Shown: in pieces, positions 4,064 to 33,652 of the stretch
Position numbering within the stretch: position 1 is the stretch's first letter
Layout: every line of letters starts with the position of its first letter
Virus record (IMG/VR): IMGVR_UViG_3300025872_000143
Location: 1-37,553 of that record
Source of the DNA: a virus
Length of the DNA stretch: 37,553 nt
Strand: one strand, 5' to 3'
Notes under the pieces: model-generated
Seen by the model: the letters and a program-made list of their open reading frames with translations, nothing else
The model's database searches: none
What the model was told of the DNA's origin: nothing
Made by a program: the position numbers and the translations under genes

Positions 4064-4581
4064 TAGACCATTACCTCCGCGACTTCATCGGCGGTCACAG
4101 CATTGGGCGCCTCGGCAATACCCATCCACACGTCCACAATCCGAGGGTGGCGCGAGACCGATGCGCTAGTCCCTTGGGTCAGGGCAAGGATAGCATCCCG
4201 AGATGCAGCAGACAGCGCACCGGCTGCAACAAGTGCCGCCATGGCCTGTTCGGCAGCTTCCAGAATGTCCGGCTGGTCGGTTTCAATGACCACGAACCGC
4301 TCCAGCATCCGGGCGAACGACCATGCTGCGGCTGCAATCGGTGTGTCGCCGGCTGCAAGTTTGTTGATGGCGTAGAGTTCGCTAGTCGGAACAACAATCC
4401 GCTGCACGGCCGCCGATGTGACGCCGATGCGGATGGGCGAGCCCTCGGTAACGGTCGGCGCATTGAGGCTGGACGCGATAGCCGACGCGCTCATCCCTTT
4501 GTATTCCGCCGCGCCAACCTCTGCGCGCAAGGCGGCTCGCGCGTCGTCGTTCAAGGGCGCCCGTGCTGATGTGTCGCTCAT
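4063..4581 (-). CDS. Hypothetical protein (172 aa) downstream of the tailspike
   Basis: The ATG at 4581 overlaps the tailspike TGA as ATGA; the frame is open further upstream but within the tailspike gene, so this start is preferred. Ala-rich, mostly helical protein: APLNDDARAALRAEVGAAEY, VVPTSELYAINKLAAGDTPI, AAAWSFARMLERFVVIETDQ, ILEAAEQAMAALVAAGALSA. No signal peptide or TM segment. It may be a chaperone or assembly factor for the spike or fibre encoded just upstream, as is common at this position, but there is no direct evidence. Confidence 0.7.
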   Translation of the reverse strand: MSDTSARAPLNDDARAALRAEVGAAEYKGMSASAIASSLNAPTVTEGSPIRIGVTSAAVQRIVVPTSELYAINKLAAGDTPIAAAAWSFARMLERFVVIETDQPDILEAAEQAMAALVAAGALSAASRDAILALTQGTSASVSRHPRIVDVWMGIAEAPNAVTADEVAEVMV

Positions 4582-7500
4582 GGAACCTTCACCGTGAAAA
4601 AGACGGAGCCGCCAGCCGCCGCCGTGCCGCCGACCACAAGCCAAAGATGCTGGCCTGCTGATAGCGTGTTCGCAGCCGTCGCCGTACCGATAGTGTCAAC
4701 CGTCGTGCTGTTCGATGTGATCGAAGACAGTCCCGTGATCGCCGTATAGGTCCCCGGCGCACCAATGGCCCCGCTATACGTGATCGTGCCGCTGGCAACG
4801 TGCGCGTAAGAGTTCAGCACCGTTCCGCCATTGATGAATGGTCCGAGGTCATATGTCCCCAGCGGCAGCGTGTTCACAAGATCGTTTGAGAGCCCGAGCA
4901 CAATCGTATTGCTCGGAACAATCGTTCCCGACGTGATCGTCCAGCCGGTCGGCAAAACTGCCCCGGTCGGCGCCGCACCCGCCCCGCCGCCGATGACGAC
5001 GGAGTTAGCGGCAAGTGCCCCGGACGAAAGCCAAGACGTTCCGCTATTGAAGTAGGGGATGCCGCCAGACGTGCCTGCGACCGTGAGCGCGAGCGTGCCG
5101 CTGGTTGTGATCGGCGAGCCGGAGACGGAGATGATGCCGCCAGTGAACGTCTCCGCCACGCTGCTGACCGTGCCGACTGCCGTTCCGTTGACGTAGAACC
5201 CACCAGACGCATTGACCTTGCCGTAGCCGAGTGCGCCGCCAGTAGGCGCCCCAACCTCGTAACCGTCCGGCCCCTTGAACGCGAGGGAGTCATAGACGGT
5301 CATCTCGCCAGTCGGAACGCCATCGACGGCAAGCCGCCCGCGTATCGCGGTCGATGCGTTGGTGCCGACCGACCACTGCAACTGAGCGCGCGTGTCGTCC
5401 GACGTGATGAACAGCGGGCCTTCAATCAGCGAGATGATCGAATACGCGGTGCCGACCGTTGGGGCGCCCGTGAACGTCGCGGCGGAGCCCTGCAAGGACC
5501 CGACTGTCGCCGTCTTTGTCGATCCGTTGTAGGCGGTGATCTGCCGCGTTTCGCCGCTGATGACTAGCGCGCCGCCCGTGTAGTAGTCGTTGGTTGCGGA
5601 AGCGCCCGCGTCCAGTACGATCGCCGATGTAGTCGAGCCGGTGCCGACCGTGCTGTTGCGGCGGTTATCCGTCCGCGAGTCAATCAGAATATCGGTGCCG
5701 CCGGTCGAAAGCTGCTTGATGTCGAACGAAAGCGACTGGCCGGAATAGATCGAGATGCCGTTGCCCGCACCCGCGCCGAAAATCCGCAAGTCCGTGAAGG
5801 CGCAATAGGCCGGAATGCCGCTTGTCGTCGTCCCGTAGAACGCAATCCCGGAGTATCCAGCGGGGGGCGAAATGACGGAAAGGCTAACAAAGTCAATCTT
5901 CTGGATCGACTGGAATGTGGTGGTCGGAGAGCCGAACTTGATGAGGTCGGAGTTGGCAACCGCCTGATCCGAGCCTTCATACTCAATTCGGCAAGACGTG
6001 ACTTTGATCGTCTTCGCCTGCTTAAACCAGAAGACGCCACCCTGCGGGCCGATGAAGGCGCATTCGACAAACTGCGTCTCGTTGGTGGCGTTGCCGGATG
6101 TGGCGGCATCAAGAATGATCTGCGGTTGCGAAGTGGTGCCGCAGGATCGCGTCATCACGTTGCGAACCATGCTTTCGCGGAGGTATGCCCGCGAGGTCGC
6201 GTCCGTGTATCCGCTAGTGAGGACGCCGGCCATGTTTTCGACCAGCATGTCTTCGAGCCACAGCCCGTCAACGCGGTCGTAGCAGCGGACGGCATCGGGC
6301 CGAACCGTCGTGGATTGGTTGCCGCCGATAGCCATAAGCGCGATGCGGAGCCGGTTCGTCAGGCTCGACGTGGTGTAGATCGGCCCGGAAATGTCAAACT
6401 GCCCAGCGCTAGGAAACAAGTTCTTCGGCGCCAACACCCATGCGCCCGTGTAGCCCTCCGTCACCTGGATGCGGGAAGACGCAGGCCCGTCGCCGAAAAT
6501 GTCGCCCGCCCGCGTGATTTTGGGCAGGCCAGAACCCGAGAACAGGCCGTAGATGCCCGCCGGCAGTCGCGCCGAGACCTGCGACGTGGAAGCGTTGAAG
6601 GCATTAAGCCAATCAGATAGCGCCGTGAAGTTGTCGGTGCCGTATTGGAATTTGCCCGTCCGTGTCCAAGAAATAGTGAACGTCGCGCCAGTGCCGCCAG
6701 TCGGGCTAGATGCGCCTGTGGCGACGGGATCAGTCGGCACAACGGTGTAATCACCATCCACCGAAGGCGCCGCCGCCATCACGTCCATGTTTGCGCTGAT
6801 CGTGGCGCCAGTCACCCCGCTGCCGGTTATGGTGATCGGAATGGCCGAAAGCGTGCCGGGATTGGTCGTGAAGACGCCATTGCGGGTGACAAGAACGGAA
6901 GTCACTCCGCCGCCGGAAACGACGCAGGTTCCCTTTGCGGGGGCGCCGACGCCCGCACTCGTCTCCCAGCGATACCGCCCGTCCGTGCCGCCAGAACCGG
7001 CCGCAGATATCGCAACCGACGACGCGCGAATTTGCGTCTTCACCACAGTCAGAACCGTGGTGGTCGCGGCGGTGCCGCCCGTTACGGTCATCGTATCGCC
7101 GGGCGCGTAGTTGCCGGACGAACCGGCATCCACCACCGTCGCCGTGTTGGCGTAGTAGTTGGAGCCAATCGCATTCGTCGCTGGGCTAGTCAGGACCACT
7201 GTGCCGCTGTTGATGACGGACGAGATCGTCGTCAGCAGCGGCGCGCTCCCGACGCCGAGCGCATCGGAAACCTCAATCGGCTTGTTCAGATCGCCCGCAA
7301 CAAACGGATTGGACGGACAGACCAGCGTATCCGGGGCGCCAAGCGTGATCGTGCCGTCCTGATACTGCACACAATCACCGACCGCGCCGTAATCCGCCAC
7401 CGCGTCGAGATAGGCCGCCGGGCCGGTCGGGCCAGTCGGACCAGTCGGGCCGCCAGAAGGGCCTGTCGGCCCCTGCGGACCCTGCGGCCCAAAGCCGCCA

Positions 7501-24372: not shown

Positions 24373-25218
24373 TCAAGCCGTGATCACGCCCTGAAGGAAA
24401 CGATTCGACATCGCCATATTCCCAGCCCAGGCGATGAGTTTGACCATCGCGTCCTGATTGACCGAGAAACGGTCGGGATCAAGCGGGACCATGTTGCGCT
24501 CCGAGTGCGGACGCAGGAACAGGTAGTTGGTGTTCAGCGCATACAGGTGCGAAGAAGGCGCACCCGAACCGCTGAGCCACGAACCGCCCGAACCAAGCAC
24601 CGAAACGTTGCCGGCAGAGGTGCCCTGGAAGCCGCCGTCATACACCACGTCAGACGTGTGGAACTTCAGCGACTGGAAGCCGGCACTAGCAGTCGAATCC
24701 GACGCAATGCGCTGGATCGCCTGGAGCGACTCCCAATAGTAGCGGTAGTAGGTGTTGTCGCCGATCCACAGGTCCGGCGTGTCGCGACCGCGAGCAAGAT
24801 TGAGCCACACGCGGTTCATCATCGTCTGCATCGTGGACGCGCCCGGAGTGAGCGAGTTCGAGGCAAACGAACCGACGTAGTTCTGCCAGAAGCCCCAGGT
24901 GCCAGCGGCAATGCCGCCCACAGTGCCGGAGTTGTTCACGTCCGCGACGAGCAACTGAAGGCCACCGATCTGCTTACCACCGCTGGCAGTGCCATCGGAG
25001 TAGCAGTCGTTGGACAGGTTGTTCATCATCGTCCGTTCAGCGTTGCCGATGCGGCTTTCGAGCAGATTGATCATCCGCTCCTTGCCGTCGTTCTGGAGCA
25101 TTTCAAGCCCAGAAATCGACACCGCAACCGCAGCCTGCGTGATGGAATACTGCGCAGCAGTAAACACATCAGACGGTGAAATATTCAACGTATCGTAGCC
25201 GGAATATCTCTGGAAGGT
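24373..25218 (-). CDS. Major capsid protein, exon 2 (3' part)
   Basis: 281 codons plus stop. With exon 1 (62 codons) the spliced product is 343 residues, a normal HK97-fold capsid length. Reading starts in frame at ACC TTC CAG AGA after the intron's last G, giving TFQRYSGYDTLNISPSDVFT, AAQYSITQAAVAVSISGLEM, LQNDGKERMINLLESRIGNA and later NYVGSFASNSLTPGASTMQT, RGRDTPDLWIGDNTYYRYYW, LRPHSERNMVPLDPDRFSVN and AMSNRFLQGVITA. The strand YSGYD...L-P-S-D and QAAVAV-x-I-S-G-x-E are hallmarks of a capsid family in P22-like podoviruses. The long frame upstream of 25218 is antisense to the HNH gene and not real protein. Splice boundary supported by P1 pairing and by family sequence continuity (ENG/TFQRYSGY). 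Confidence 0.9.
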   Translation of the reverse strand, partial: TFQRYSGYDTLNISPSDVFTAAQYSITQAAVAVSISGLEMLQNDGKERMINLLESRIGNAERTMMNNLSNDCYSDGTASGGKQIGGLQLLVADVNNSGTVGGIAAGTWGFWQNYVGSFASNSLTPGASTMQTMMNRVWLNLARGRDTPDLWIGDNTYYRYYWESLQAIQRIASDSTASAGFQSLKFHTSDVVYDGGFQGTSAGNVSVLGSGGSWLSGSGAPSSHLYALNTNYLFLRPHSERNMVPLDPDRFSVNQDAMVKLIAWAGNMAMSNRFLQGVITA

Positions 25219-25415
25219 CGATTGTGTTATCGCAGAACTGTTTATGCTCTGCTTCTGCATCTTGTGCCGAATCCTCGATGCAGTCCTGACTATATCTTCA
25301 CCGTTGCTGCGGTGGCGGGCGCTCGTGGGGGGATTATTGTTTCCGCACCCCCTAGTCGATACACCTTCATCGGCCCTGGCGCCATAAGGCGTTACGTCCG
25401 ACGCTTGGCTCGGGA

Positions 25416-25444
25416 TTGCCATCATGTGAGAAAACGAGTATGAT
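25416..25444 (+). promoter_or_regulatory. Sigma70-like promoter inside the intron core for the antisense HNH gene
   Basis: TTGCCA at 25416-25421, a 17-nt spacer, and TATGAT at 25439-25444, each one mismatch from consensus. Predicted start of transcription around 25451, giving a leader of about 60 nt before the HNH ATG at 25510, whose Shine-Dalgarno is GAAAGG (25497-25502). Lies on the + strand, overlapping the Q element of the ribozyme on the other strand. Good match and good placement, but a chance hit cannot be excluded. Confidence 0.6.
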
Positions 25445-25509
25445 GCACTCGCTTTCTTCCGGCGATGGGTTTCCCCGAATTCACCCGCTGTTCTCTGAAA
25501 GGTTAACCG

Positions 25510-26181
25510 ATGCCAAAGGGCGTTCCCAAAATCGTAACTGTTTGCGAAGTCTGTTCCATCGCATTTGAGCGCACGCCAGCATTCCACCGATCCGCCGAAG
25601 CGAAGGGGGGAAAGGTTAGGTTTTGCTCTCAAAAGTGCTTTGGAATAGCAAAGTCCGCAGGGAAGGTTGTCGTCACTCCCTACAAACCGAAGCAAGACTT
25701 CACTTGCGATGCGTGTGGTTCCGTTTTTCAACGGTGGCCATCCGCGATTCGCTTTGCAGAAAAACACGATATCGGGATTAGATTTTGCTCCAAGGAATGC
25801 CATGGACGAGCCCGCACGACGGGCATCCTGGAACTTCCTGCGCGGAGCGATGAGTCCAAACAACGCAGTTCCGACGCCATGCGCAAAACGTGGGGACGAA
25901 CCCCACATCCCGACACGGTTATGAAATTGCCCAAGCAACGGAGGGCATACATCGCGAGAGGCACGAACTTCACGCCCGCCCAAAAGAGAGCGTGGATTGA
26001 TTCGTGTTGCGCGCGCTGCGGTGCCACAGAGTCGCTTGAACTCGATCATATTATCTGTGTCGCGGCTGGCGGTGAGTCGGTGCGAGAAAACGCACAAACC
26101 CTTTGCCGTCCGTGCAACAGATGGAAGAAGGACCACGTTGATTTGCCTTTGGCTCGTAAACAGACCCCTTCAGGAGGCTAG
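25510..26181 (+). CDS. HNH homing endonuclease with two N-terminal Cys4 zinc modules, antisense in the intron
   Basis: 223 residues; ATG at 25510 with GAAAGG about 7 nt upstream. Two Cys4 modules, C12-C15...C39-C43 (VCEVCSIAFE, RFCSQKCFG) and C66-C69...C93-C97 (FTCDACGSVFQRWPSAIRFA, RFCSKECHG), look like treble-clef/zinc-ribbon DNA-binding units. The HNH nuclease domain is C-terminal: C-AxC pair at 167-170 (CARCGATESLELDH), D179-H180, N194, C199-C202 and N203 with LCRPCNRWKKDH; the ELDH...N...C-xx-C-N pattern is characteristic. It would cut intronless capsid genes to spread the intron. It is encoded on the strand OPPOSITE to the capsid gene and intron, which is unusual, and needs its own transcript. 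It ends 2 nt before the intron's guide-sequence hairpin. Confidence 0.9.
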   Translation: MPKGVPKIVTVCEVCSIAFERTPAFHRSAEAKGGKVRFCSQKCFGIAKSAGKVVVTPYKPKQDFTCDACGSVFQRWPSAIRFAEKHDIGIRFCSKECHGRARTTGILELPARSDESKQRSSDAMRKTWGRTPHPDTVMKLPKQRRAYIARGTNFTPAQKRAWIDSCCARCGATESLELDHIICVAAGGESVRENAQTLCRPCNRWKKDHVDLPLARKQTPSGG

Positions 26182-26182
26182 T

Positions 26183-26205
26183 GGAAAACAACCGGAGTGT
26201 TTTCC
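26183..26205. other. Inverted repeat at the 5' end of the intron, possible HNH terminator and alternative P1
   Basis: GGAAAACA (26183-26190), a 7-nt loop and TGTTTTCC (26198-26205) form a perfect 8-bp stem. On the + strand it follows the HNH stop directly and could end that transcript, although no clear U-tract follows. On the intron strand it pairs intron nucleotides ~6-13 with the same guide sequence that must pair with exon 1 in P1, so it is a competing hairpin that could regulate or slow 5' splice-site choice. Confidence 0.5.
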
Positions 26206-26210
26206 TGTTC

Positions 26211-26396
26211 ACCATTTTCCGAGTATTCAAGCTCCTGGACAATCGCCTGACCGCCATCGAACGGCTTGACGTTCGATTTCTGCTCAAGTCGATTCAGAAG
26301 CGCATTGTTTTTCGTCACGTTGTCCGCCAGCTTGCGCGAGCGGTTGTAGAGGGTGGTGGTCGCGATTTCCGACCACGTGGACGAGGGAGTAGCCAT
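26211..26396 (-). CDS. Major capsid protein, exon 1 (5' part)
   Basis: 62 codons from the ATG at 26396, starting MATPSSTWSEIATTTLYNRS and ending GQAIVQELEYSENG. The open frame carries on 10 codons into the intron (EQENTPVVFH) before a TAG, which would give a truncated 72-residue protein if splicing fails. Family knowledge predicts the continuation ENG-TFQRYSGYD, supplied by exon 2. It starts 16 nt after the scaffold gene stop. N-terminal region of an HK97-fold capsid protein. Confidence 0.9.
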
Positions 26397-30919: not shown

Positions 30920-33652
30920 CTAAATCCTTCCCTCAAAGGGACCACGCGGCCGGGCAAGGCGCCACGCCTCGTCAAGCGTCATTTGCCCAATACCACGCAT
31001 CGGAGTTTCGACGGAAGGCTTGCGATACCAAGGCCGAGCCATTACACAATATCTCGCTGCGTCAGCGGAATGATCTTCGGACTTGGTGTCGATATCTTCG
31101 GGGCGAATATCATCATGTTGCAAAACCGGCACCGTGCGGATGAAATCGACCGCCGTGTTGAACGCATACAGCATGGGGCCGCCATCATCGCCCAGCAGGC
31201 GGTCCCGCACCATCGTCCATCCGGCAATGCGCGAATTATCCGCCGGTCGGAGGGATACGCCATTGCGCCCCATGATCTCGGCGTGTGACGGGCCGCCATC
31301 CACTTTCCAACAGGCCGGGTCAGCAACGCGGAAGTCGATTTTTTCGCCGTATTCGCGCTCTCGAATCCCCCGCGCGATATCAGCCGTCGCCATGCGAAGG
31401 CCCTCGTTCGAGGAACCCTCCTTCGCGCCATACCACTCTCTATATAGTATCATCGCCCCCTGCGGGAATTGCCGCGTCCGCGCGTTCGGCGCCTCCCGAT
31501 ACGGCACATACACTGGGTTGCCGTCACTAACCGCCCACCATTGAGCGCAAAAAGGCCGGGCCGACCCCCAATCGAACCCCATGAACCGAACCCAATGCGG
31601 CGGGATTTCAAACGGTTCAATGACGTGCCGCTCCGTGTCGAAACAGTCGAAAAACGCGCCGGCAACAACGTTCCAATCGCCCGTGAGCCACGCCTTCACC
31701 AACGCCTCGGACCCAACGAGATACAGGCGATTGACGTAATCAGGGTCTCGCGCCAGCAGCGCCTTGTTGTCCTGAACCCGGCTCGGGATATACACATACC
31801 GATGCGATCCGCCGCTCGGCAGCTTGCGCTCCATCACCTTCATGCCCTGCGGCGCCGGATCAATGAACCGCCGCTTGATCCACTGATGACCAGCACCCCC
31901 AGGGTTTGCCGTCATCGTCAACTGCGTAGGCACACCCTTGACCGAACGCAACGCACCAAAAAGCATGTCGATCGGTGCGCTTGTGGAATAGTTGCCCGCC
32001 TCCTCGACTGCCGCGTCGCTCAGATTCTGCCCCTGATACTTCGATGCGTCTGCGGAACTTTCCAGTGGGCGAAACCGAATGCGAGCCCCGCTTTTGAACA
32101 CAAACGTCTTCTGCTGCTCACGCCAAGACGCACCCAGCGGGGCGTAAATCTCCTTGGCGCGCTCGATCAAGTCATCAGTCTGCGGCATCTCCTGCCGAAA
32201 AAATACGGCGTTGACGCCAGAGCCGTATCTGCTCGCTTTGATCGCCCACTTGCCAAGAATGCCGTCTGTGTTGTGCGTCGCGATCATGGTCTTCCCGACA
32301 AGATACAGACCATCATCATGTGCGACTTTGATGCAGCGCATCGGAACGGGAGCAATTTTCGACACAGAGACGATGAATCTCCGGTTCACCGTTGGGCGCA
32401 TCTCATCAAATTTCTGCCGCTCCAACTTTCTCGGCAAATGAAACGCAGGGAAAGGCGCCAAAAACTTGATACGCCACGTCGTCCCAACGTCCCGTCCGTT
32501 GATCGTCGCCTGCTTGGATCGAATCACTCCCTTAATGCCAAGGGATGACAGCAAATCAAGCGTGTCTTCGATCAGGTCAAGATTGGAAAACCCGATTTCG
32601 ATTTGGCCTCGCTGGTCGCAATAGCCGTCCGTGTCCAAAATCCCACGCAACAATTCGCGCCTCTGTTCAAGCGAGGCTCGTAGGTATTGGGGGGGAATGC
32701 GTTTCACATCCGCAAGGCCAAGATGACGCAACTTCGTCGTCATTCCCTCAAATCGGACATCCACGAACGGCGTCTTTCTCGGCGGCTGATCATCCACACT
32801 CATCCAGGCCGGCGGGGGAAATTTGTGGGCCAAAACCTCCCAATCCGGTTGTCCTATGCCGATGTAACCGCCACGCTGATACCCGTCGCCCAGCCATGCG
32901 CCAAGCACGTAAGGATCAATCGGCAACTCGACAGCCGGCAATTCGATCGGACTCGTTAGAGCAATCGAGTGATTGACCTCCTTGCCATCCATCAAGGACG
33001 CCGCGATCTTCGCCGTTGTGCGAATACCCCCCGTCGATGCCTCCTTATACTCATGAAGACGCTCGCGGTTCCTTTTTGTCACATCCGCCGACACACCCGG
33101 CTTCTGACTAACCGCCTTGGCCCGCGACGGACGCGAAGCACGCCGCTTTGCGCGCCACTCCTCATTCGCCTTGGCAGCATATTTCCGTTCTTTCGCCGTC
33201 ATCGTGTGCCAAAGATGCTCGGCATCAGCCAAGATCACATCGCCGGTATTGAACAGAACCTCATACGATTCAGGCGCCTCCATAATCGGAGACACCCACT
33301 CCACCTCGACAGGTTCCCCACGCGGAGAAAATACGCGATCTCCTACAGATACAGTCCCCATGGTCTTGTAGCCAGACGGATCAGTGTCGAGCGTAACCGG
33401 CACTAATGTCTCAGTCCAAAGACGCTTCCCTCCGCCTCGACTACCTCCGAAGAGCACTTCTGCTACAGGGCAATCAACATATGCTTTCTGTGGTCCTGAC
33501 TGCGGGGACCAAACTACTTCATCTTTCTGCGGATTTAGTTTGAGGCCAGCCGCAGAGTGAAACTCAGGCGCCCGGTATGCCGCATCGGCAGCCCGCTTCT
33601 TGTATTCGCGCCCAGCGTTGGCTGCCGCTTGCCTGGACGTGAACCCGCTCAC
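30920..33652 (-). CDS. terL: Large terminase subunit (terL), interrupted by an intein
   Basis: 910 residues as translated; about 525 after splicing. Starts with GTG at 33652 (GTGA overlap with terS). ATPase domain: EVVWSPQSGPQKAYVD, LFGGSRGGGK at 67-76 (Walker A, split before its Thr), continuing after the intein as TDGILGKWAIKASRYGSGVN; Walker B-like LSDAAVEEAGNY; motif III TMTANPGGAGHQWIKRRFID. Nuclease domain (RNase H-like) with VRFMGFDWGSARPFCAQWWA, FRVADPACWKVD and PEDIDTKSEDHSADAARY carrying the acidic metal-binding residues. It packages DNA into the prohead with the small subunit and portal. Correct activity requires intein removal because the insertion splits the P-loop. Confidence 0.93.
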   Translation of the reverse strand: MSGFTSRQAAANAGREYKKRAADAAYRAPEFHSAAGLKLNPQKDEVVWSPQSGPQKAYVDCPVAEVLFGGSRGGGKRLWTETLVPVTLDTDPSGYKTMGTVSVGDRVFSPRGEPVEVEWVSPIMEAPESYEVLFNTGDVILADAEHLWHTMTAKERKYAAKANEEWRAKRRASRPSRAKAVSQKPGVSADVTKRNRERLHEYKEASTGGIRTTAKIAASLMDGKEVNHSIALTSPIELPAVELPIDPYVLGAWLGDGYQRGGYIGIGQPDWEVLAHKFPPPAWMSVDDQPPRKTPFVDVRFEGMTTKLRHLGLADVKRIPPQYLRASLEQRRELLRGILDTDGYCDQRGQIEIGFSNLDLIEDTLDLLSSLGIKGVIRSKQATINGRDVGTTWRIKFLAPFPAFHLPRKLERQKFDEMRPTVNRRFIVSVSKIAPVPMRCIKVAHDDGLYLVGKTMIATHNTDGILGKWAIKASRYGSGVNAVFFRQEMPQTDDLIERAKEIYAPLGASWREQQKTFVFKSGARIRFRPLESSADASKYQGQNLSDAAVEEAGNYSTSAPIDMLFGALRSVKGVPTQLTMTANPGGAGHQWIKRRFIDPAPQGMKVMERKLPSGGSHRYVYIPSRVQDNKALLARDPDYVNRLYLVGSEALVKAWLTGDWNVVAGAFFDCFDTERHVIEPFEIPPHWVRFMGFDWGSARPFCAQWWAVSDGNPVYVPYREAPNARTRQFPQGAMILYREWYGAKEGSSNEGLRMATADIARGIREREYGEKIDFRVADPACWKVDGGPSHAEIMGRNGVSLRPADNSRIAGWTMVRDRLLGDDGGPMLYAFNTAVDFIRTVPVLQHDDIRPEDIDTKSEDHSADAARYCVMARPWYRKPSVETPMRGIGQMTLDEAWRLARPRGPFEGRI
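32270..33424 (-). mobile_element. Class 3-type intein with LAGLIDADG homing endonuclease, in the terL P-loop
   Basis: 385 residues, R77 to N461 of the precursor. The insertion is between Lys and Thr of the Walker A (GGSRGGGK / TDGILGKW). It has an N-terminal block A-like LWTETLVPVTL...GTVSVGDRVFSP without a Cys/Ser/Thr at position 1. Block B has ADAEHLW (W148), block F has MRCIKVAHDDGLYLVG (C440), block G ends ATHN (T459, H460, N461) followed by Thr. Trp-Cys-Thr is the signature of class 3 inteins, which use the block F Cys as first nucleophile. The insert holds two DOD motifs: PYVLGAWLGDGYQ (about 247-259) and ELLRGILDTDGYCD (333-346), the LAGLIDADG endonuclease. Confidence 0.9.

Follow-up and report, generated by a model that had tools for sequence, protein, structure and literature searches.

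A group I intron in a phage major capsid gene with an antisense HNH endonuclease gene, and the antisense lineage to which the gene probably belongs

The major capsid gene in the window (the whole stretch of viral DNA analyzed, 37,553 nucleotides) very likely carries a mobile group I intron whose HNH homing endonuclease is encoded on the opposite strand and belongs to a lineage that is stably antisense. The evidence came from the splice junction, the ribozyme structure, the coding frame within the intron, and homologues of the HNH protein in introns of related capsid genes.

Capsid gene and splice junction

The exons and the intron of the capsid gene were located as follows.

26211..26396, minus strand: major capsid protein exon 1, 62 codons (translation, alignment to uninterrupted relatives)
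24373..25218, minus strand: major capsid protein exon 2, 281 codons and stop (translation, phrog_9953 match)
25219..26210, minus strand: group I intron, 992 nt, after codon 62 in phase 0 (junction compared with 101 uninterrupted capsid loci)

Exon 2 matched the phrog_9953 major head protein family (E=1.3e-85, profile 64-328), and its nearest isolates were Bradyrhizobium phage ppBjS10J-1, Stenotrophomonas phage BUCT555, and Myxococcus phages Mx8 and Mx9. The junction AATGGT/ACCTTC was read as ENG-TFQ in phase 0, and excision of the intron gave a capsid protein of 343 residues that aligned continuously, end to end, to intronless relatives. Among the viral contigs, the best relative of the spliced protein was L002, with 86% identity over residues 1-343. 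The initial annotation had proposed a survey of relatives for intronless capsid genes, and the assembled set supplied 101 such loci. Because the joined protein matched this uninterrupted family from end to end, the insertion is genuine and its junction is placed exactly. A long sense frame at 24373-26136, which runs from the intron into exon 2, was discarded, being out of frame with exon 1 over an intron of 992 nt. A second phage, L017, possessed an intron end at the same site (codon 62/63); positions 1-73 of its contig are the final 73 nt of the intron.

Structure of the ribozyme

25255..25567, minus strand: ribozyme core, Rfam Intron_gpI, 58.4 bits, E=1.8e-12, minus strand only
26183..26220, minus strand: P1, exon 26220-26211 with guide 26192-26183, 10 bp, U.G at the splice site
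25353..25357, minus strand: P7 5' strand, GACTA (Rfam match, family alignment)
25288..25292, minus strand: P7 3' strand, TAGTC (Rfam match, family alignment)

Both strands were scanned with the Intron_gpI covariance model, a check suggested in the initial annotation. The plus strand gave no match, and on the minus strand the RF00028 score, 58.4 bits, exceeded the gathering score of 50. In P1, the final ten exon bases (GGAAAATGGT) paired with GTTGTTTTCC (26192-26183), forming a U.G pair at the 5' splice site; the last base of the intron was G.

The named structure was also assessed on an alignment of 18 related cores, in which L015 aligned poorly in P3-P4. Paired cells made up 97.0% compared with 79.2 in shuffles, and two-sided changes were found in 25 of the 41 pairs, compared with 14.7 in shuffles and 4-10 in slid versions. 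None of 500 shuffles matched any of the measures observed, and sliding the partners by 1-3 columns reduced the paired cells to 32-39%. Covariation was present in P3, P4, P5, P6, P8, and P9. P7 was invariant across the 18 cores; in L039, of the same core family, GAGCA/TGCTC was seen by eye to replace GACTA/TAGTC, which is a compensatory change. A P3-P9 core on the spliced strand, a P1 with U.G together with the terminal G, and the joining of the exons were all found. Together, the structure, the covariation, and the junction show a group I intron on the capsid strand, one that we infer to be self-splicing. The intron at 25219-26210 that had been recognized initially was borne out by the agreement of the junction, P1, P7, the RF00028 match, and the intronless relatives.

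The HNH gene inside the intron

25510..26181, plus strand: HNH endonuclease gene, 223 aa, antisense to the capsid gene and the ribozyme; Pfam HNH_5 and HNH; homologues in L015, L027, L048, and L281
25497..25502, plus strand: Shine-Dalgarno-like GAAAGG, spaced 7 nt from the HNH ATG and antisense to sequence adjoining P3

The antisense gene with its start and Shine-Dalgarno-like site, also noted initially, was confirmed by Pfam matches above the cut-off (HNH_5, E=1.9e-9; HNH, E=1.3e-8). The start codon was ATG, the protein contained the HNH (beta-beta-alpha metal) motif, and the HNH endonuclease in PDB 4h9d matched it with E=2e-4. Some 20 nt separated the start codon from P3 (5' strand), and at the other end the stop codon ended one base before the P1 guide, so the gene fills the P1-P3 interval. 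Divergence among the homologues was 61-70% at codon position 3 and 37-48% at positions 1 and 2, and this third-position divergence supports the prediction that the frame codes for protein. Short patterns built on the single HNH protein retrieved no close relatives from the viral contigs; for that, an alignment of three sequences was required. Matches of the protein to isolated phages mostly covered the shared HNH core.

Recurrence of the HNH lineage in capsid introns

Four more homologues of the HNH protein were found in group I introns, and all four were antisense (five of five with the window).

L015: capsid codon 70, phase 1, antisense; core by family alignment
L281: capsid codon 70, antisense; Rfam core on the capsid strand, 35.5 bits
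L027: capsid codon 67, phase 1, antisense; Rfam core on the capsid strand
L048: homologous tyrosine codon of a divergent capsid gene, antisense; Rfam core on the capsid strand, 47.8 bits

L281 was found through its ribozyme sequence and was thus unselected for the HNH gene. The insertion points of the lineage were three (after codon 62, inside codon 67, and inside codon 70) and spanned 22 bp, a distance similar to that covered by an HNH homing site. As the points are clustered in this way, a single recognition region could explain all three, and judged by the clustering, the lineage probably shares one. Homologues associated with introns (the five antisense genes in capsid introns) occur alongside the 101 uninterrupted loci.

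Introns were also found in the capsid gene after codon 27 and at about codons 58, 105-107, 138, 162-166, and 290. Sense genes in capsid introns encoded GIY-YIG endonucleases (after codon 27 in L026, L027, and L200; also in L323, L324, L330, L346, and L296), an HNH of a different kind (L040, L281, and L332), or a LAGLIDADG protein (L033). The sense gene of the codon-27 introns sits in P8, while the antisense HNH lineage sits between P1 and P3, and L027 and L281 each hold both arrangements within one capsid gene. Therefore, orientation tracks the endonuclease lineage and its position in the intron, not the host gene. Antisense placement is a stable arrangement, as its persistence at different sites and in divergent capsid genes shows. 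The lineage is a natural set for asking how such genes are expressed, and the introns with sense genes elsewhere in the capsid gene, with both kinds in L027 and L281, provide an internal control for comparing the two arrangements.

The capsid gene family was a hot spot of related group I introns, with at least nine insertion points (L332, L258, L033, L027, L026, L038, and L281), and L332 had up to four Rfam group I matches in or around one capsid gene. In L029, a gene at 4245-4883 (minus strand) near capsid codon 290 carried AGLFDGDG and was related to a sense gene in L079. It gave no Pfam match, and the insertion, which has group I-like segments, gave no Rfam match, so it was regarded as only a probable case of an antisense LAGLIDADG-like gene. 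L303 seemed to hold a further antisense HNH relative, but this was rejected, as the match arises from the L027 frame overrunning the antisense of the ribozyme core. Antisense frames in L086 and L103 looked HNH-like by eye and had no Pfam match; they were not counted.

Proposed mechanism of homing

In the proposed mechanism, the capsid-strand RNA would fold as a group I ribozyme, excise itself, and join codons 62 and 63. The HNH protein would make a nick or a break in intronless capsid genes in the region of codons 62-70, and repair would copy the intron in. Cleavage and homing are proposed because the protein has an HNH domain, capsid sites are found both occupied and empty, and phage HNH homing enzymes are known. 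The recognition region is probably common to the members of the lineage, and an intron at any of the three points would destroy it. The antisense orientation would be an inherited trait of the HNH lineage.

It is also conceivable, but unlikely, that the HNH gene is independent, occupying a resident intron as a safe site and having another target, so that the intron is not mobilized by it. Related cores without an endonuclease gene (L026 codon 70, L033 codon 105) and related cores with unrelated sense genes in P8 (L026, L027, and L200 after codon 27) indicate that core and gene are separable. However, the five HNH homologues all occupied capsid codons 62-70 or the homologous site, and none was found at the other intron sites, which argues against such independence.

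Expression of the antisense gene

Endonuclease genes of phage introns are thought to ride on the transcript of the host gene. All recognizable genes upstream of 25510 in the window were on the minus strand. Because no plus-strand gene of recognized function lies upstream there, the HNH protein would need a plus-strand transcript initiating within the intron or exon 2. One sigma-70-like site was observed.

25416..25444, plus strand: promoter-like TTGCCA-17-TATGAT, sigma-70-like; 0.8 expected by chance in the scanned stretch

The search for a conserved promoter of the antisense gene gave none: one of the four homologues reached a 9/12 match, and the others reached 8/12 or less. No terminator-like site was found directly after 26181 on the plus strand. 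By geometry, an HNH mRNA is complementary to the P1-P3 interval and, should transcription continue past the gene, to the 5' splice site as well.

These features bear on a second alternative, in which the antisense orientation acts as a regulatory device: early endonuclease would come from a plus-strand promoter, and the antisense RNA would delay splicing or capsid synthesis. The complementarity, the lack of a terminator-like site just past 26181, and the one promoter-like site would all suit such a device, but that site is at chance level and poorly kept among the homologues, and we consider this quite improbable. A related extension is very unlikely: the lineage would be locked in the antisense orientation as this orientation works, its own plus-strand promoter would supply enzyme whether or not the capsid gene is transcribed, and the resulting RNA, being complementary to the intron's 5' part, would tune capsid splicing. 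That the frame is a decayed or unexpressed remnant, as the missing plus-strand neighbour to supply transcription might suggest, is highly improbable against an intact frame of 223 codons, retained HNH motif residues, third-position divergence, and a start with a Shine-Dalgarno-like site.

Frequency of antisense placement

The sample consisted of phage contigs picked by a short core motif carrying no endonuclease information. Group I matches were found in 92 of the 100 contigs searched, and four Pfam endonuclease families were mapped in 46 of the 92. In these 46 contigs, the endonuclease-domain hits lying no more than 800 nt from a group I core were 27 sense and 1 antisense; the count includes a few genes hit twice, as two pieces or by two models, and proximity to a core does not place a gene inside the intron. 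The result was in agreement with the initial statement that phage intron endonucleases are normally in sense, and sense orientation is a strong rule for them. The sole antisense case was an HNH_3 gene in L065 (record G007, 89960-90085, minus strand), which adjoins a group I core of an unrelated phage and falls outside the HNH lineage of the window. A scan of bacterial genomes with the ribozyme motif yielded mostly chance matches in GC-rich genomes; one, L461, passed the core filter.

Leu-Ala-Ala tails in related introns

When the unspliced exon was read into related introns, the in-frame stop often followed Leu-Ala-Ala, which is the end of the ssrA degradation tag (a ClpXP degron). The tail is encoded by a hairpin, likely P2, and a GUAA or GUGA loop supplies the stop.

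L015, 3128-3160: PLAA
L026, 3741-3775: PLAA
L027, 2156-2175: ALAA
L038, 3638-3665 and 4228-4255: SLAA and ALAA
L029, about 4210-4250: GLAA

Further loci were L095, L103, L108, and L493-L518. The insertion phases varied, with phase 0 at codon 138 in L038 and phase 1 in the others. A frame-blind DNA pattern of the element gave 22 distinct cases, in 21 of which no frame stayed open longer than the Leu-Ala-Ala frame. With the Leu codon left free and group I context judged by simple sequence cues, 30 of 34 cases were in frame, and Leu preceded Ala-Ala in 20 of these 30; the same relaxed pattern outside group I context gave a frame split of 24:12:12 (24/48 in frame). Of 47 read-through tails roughly assembled from wider samples, five ended in Leu-Ala-Ala, and no other triplet recurred among those listed. 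The read-through of the window's own intron ended in VVFH. The tails suggest that, in some phage group I introns, the truncated protein made from unspliced mRNA is marked for ClpXP-type proteolysis; less probably, only the stop is under selection and the hairpin stem is conserved with it.

Intein in the terminase gene

The large terminase gene (30920-33652) contained a LAGLIDADG intein at 32270-33424 (minus strand), inserted in the Walker A motif (GGSRGGGK/TDG). The first residue was Arg, with W148, C440, and T+1, which we take to fit class 3 inteins. Its best solved relatives were 6rix and 6bs8, whose chains are named replicative DNA helicase and which are probably the mycobacterial DnaB intein.

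Comparison with known systems

The genes of I-HmuI, I-BasI, and I-PfoP3I are in the sense orientation. Like the gene in the window, they encode HNH endonucleases within phage group I introns, but theirs lie in DNA polymerase introns (PMC3428280), and no close sequence relation of the window protein to enzymes of this kind was found. In the literature covered, which excludes most subscription journals, no publication was found on an antisense HNH version, the P1-P3 placement, its conservation across sites, or a count of sense and antisense genes.

Antisense placement has precedents, since the LittleE capsid intron and nuclear rDNA introns already have antisense genes. The capsid intron of the mycobacteriophage LittleE (Omegavirus) has a leftward, bottom-strand LAGLIDADG gene, gp14, and its splicing was shown by RT-PCR (Pope et al. 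2013, PMC3706429). In the LittleE record, the core was found at 1859-2062 (L058) and the antisense endonuclease gene at 2065-2598, 3' of the core. The two introns are alike in being capsid group I introns with an endonuclease gene opposite the ribozyme strand, and in both the exon ends in U and the intron in G. They differ in that the LittleE gene encodes a LAGLIDADG protein 3' of the core, whereas the window has an unrelated HNH protein encoded between P1 and P3. Furthermore, the nuclear rDNA group I intron Dsq.L2066 of Didymium squamulosum possesses antisense I-DsqI, which is expressed in vivo from the opposite strand (PMC9548176). It resembles the window intron in its antisense endonuclease gene, but it is eukaryotic and nuclear, and its gene encodes a His-Cys endonuclease, lies in P9, and contains a spliceosomal intron. 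An antisense endonuclease gene in a group I intron is a known arrangement, and a rare one.
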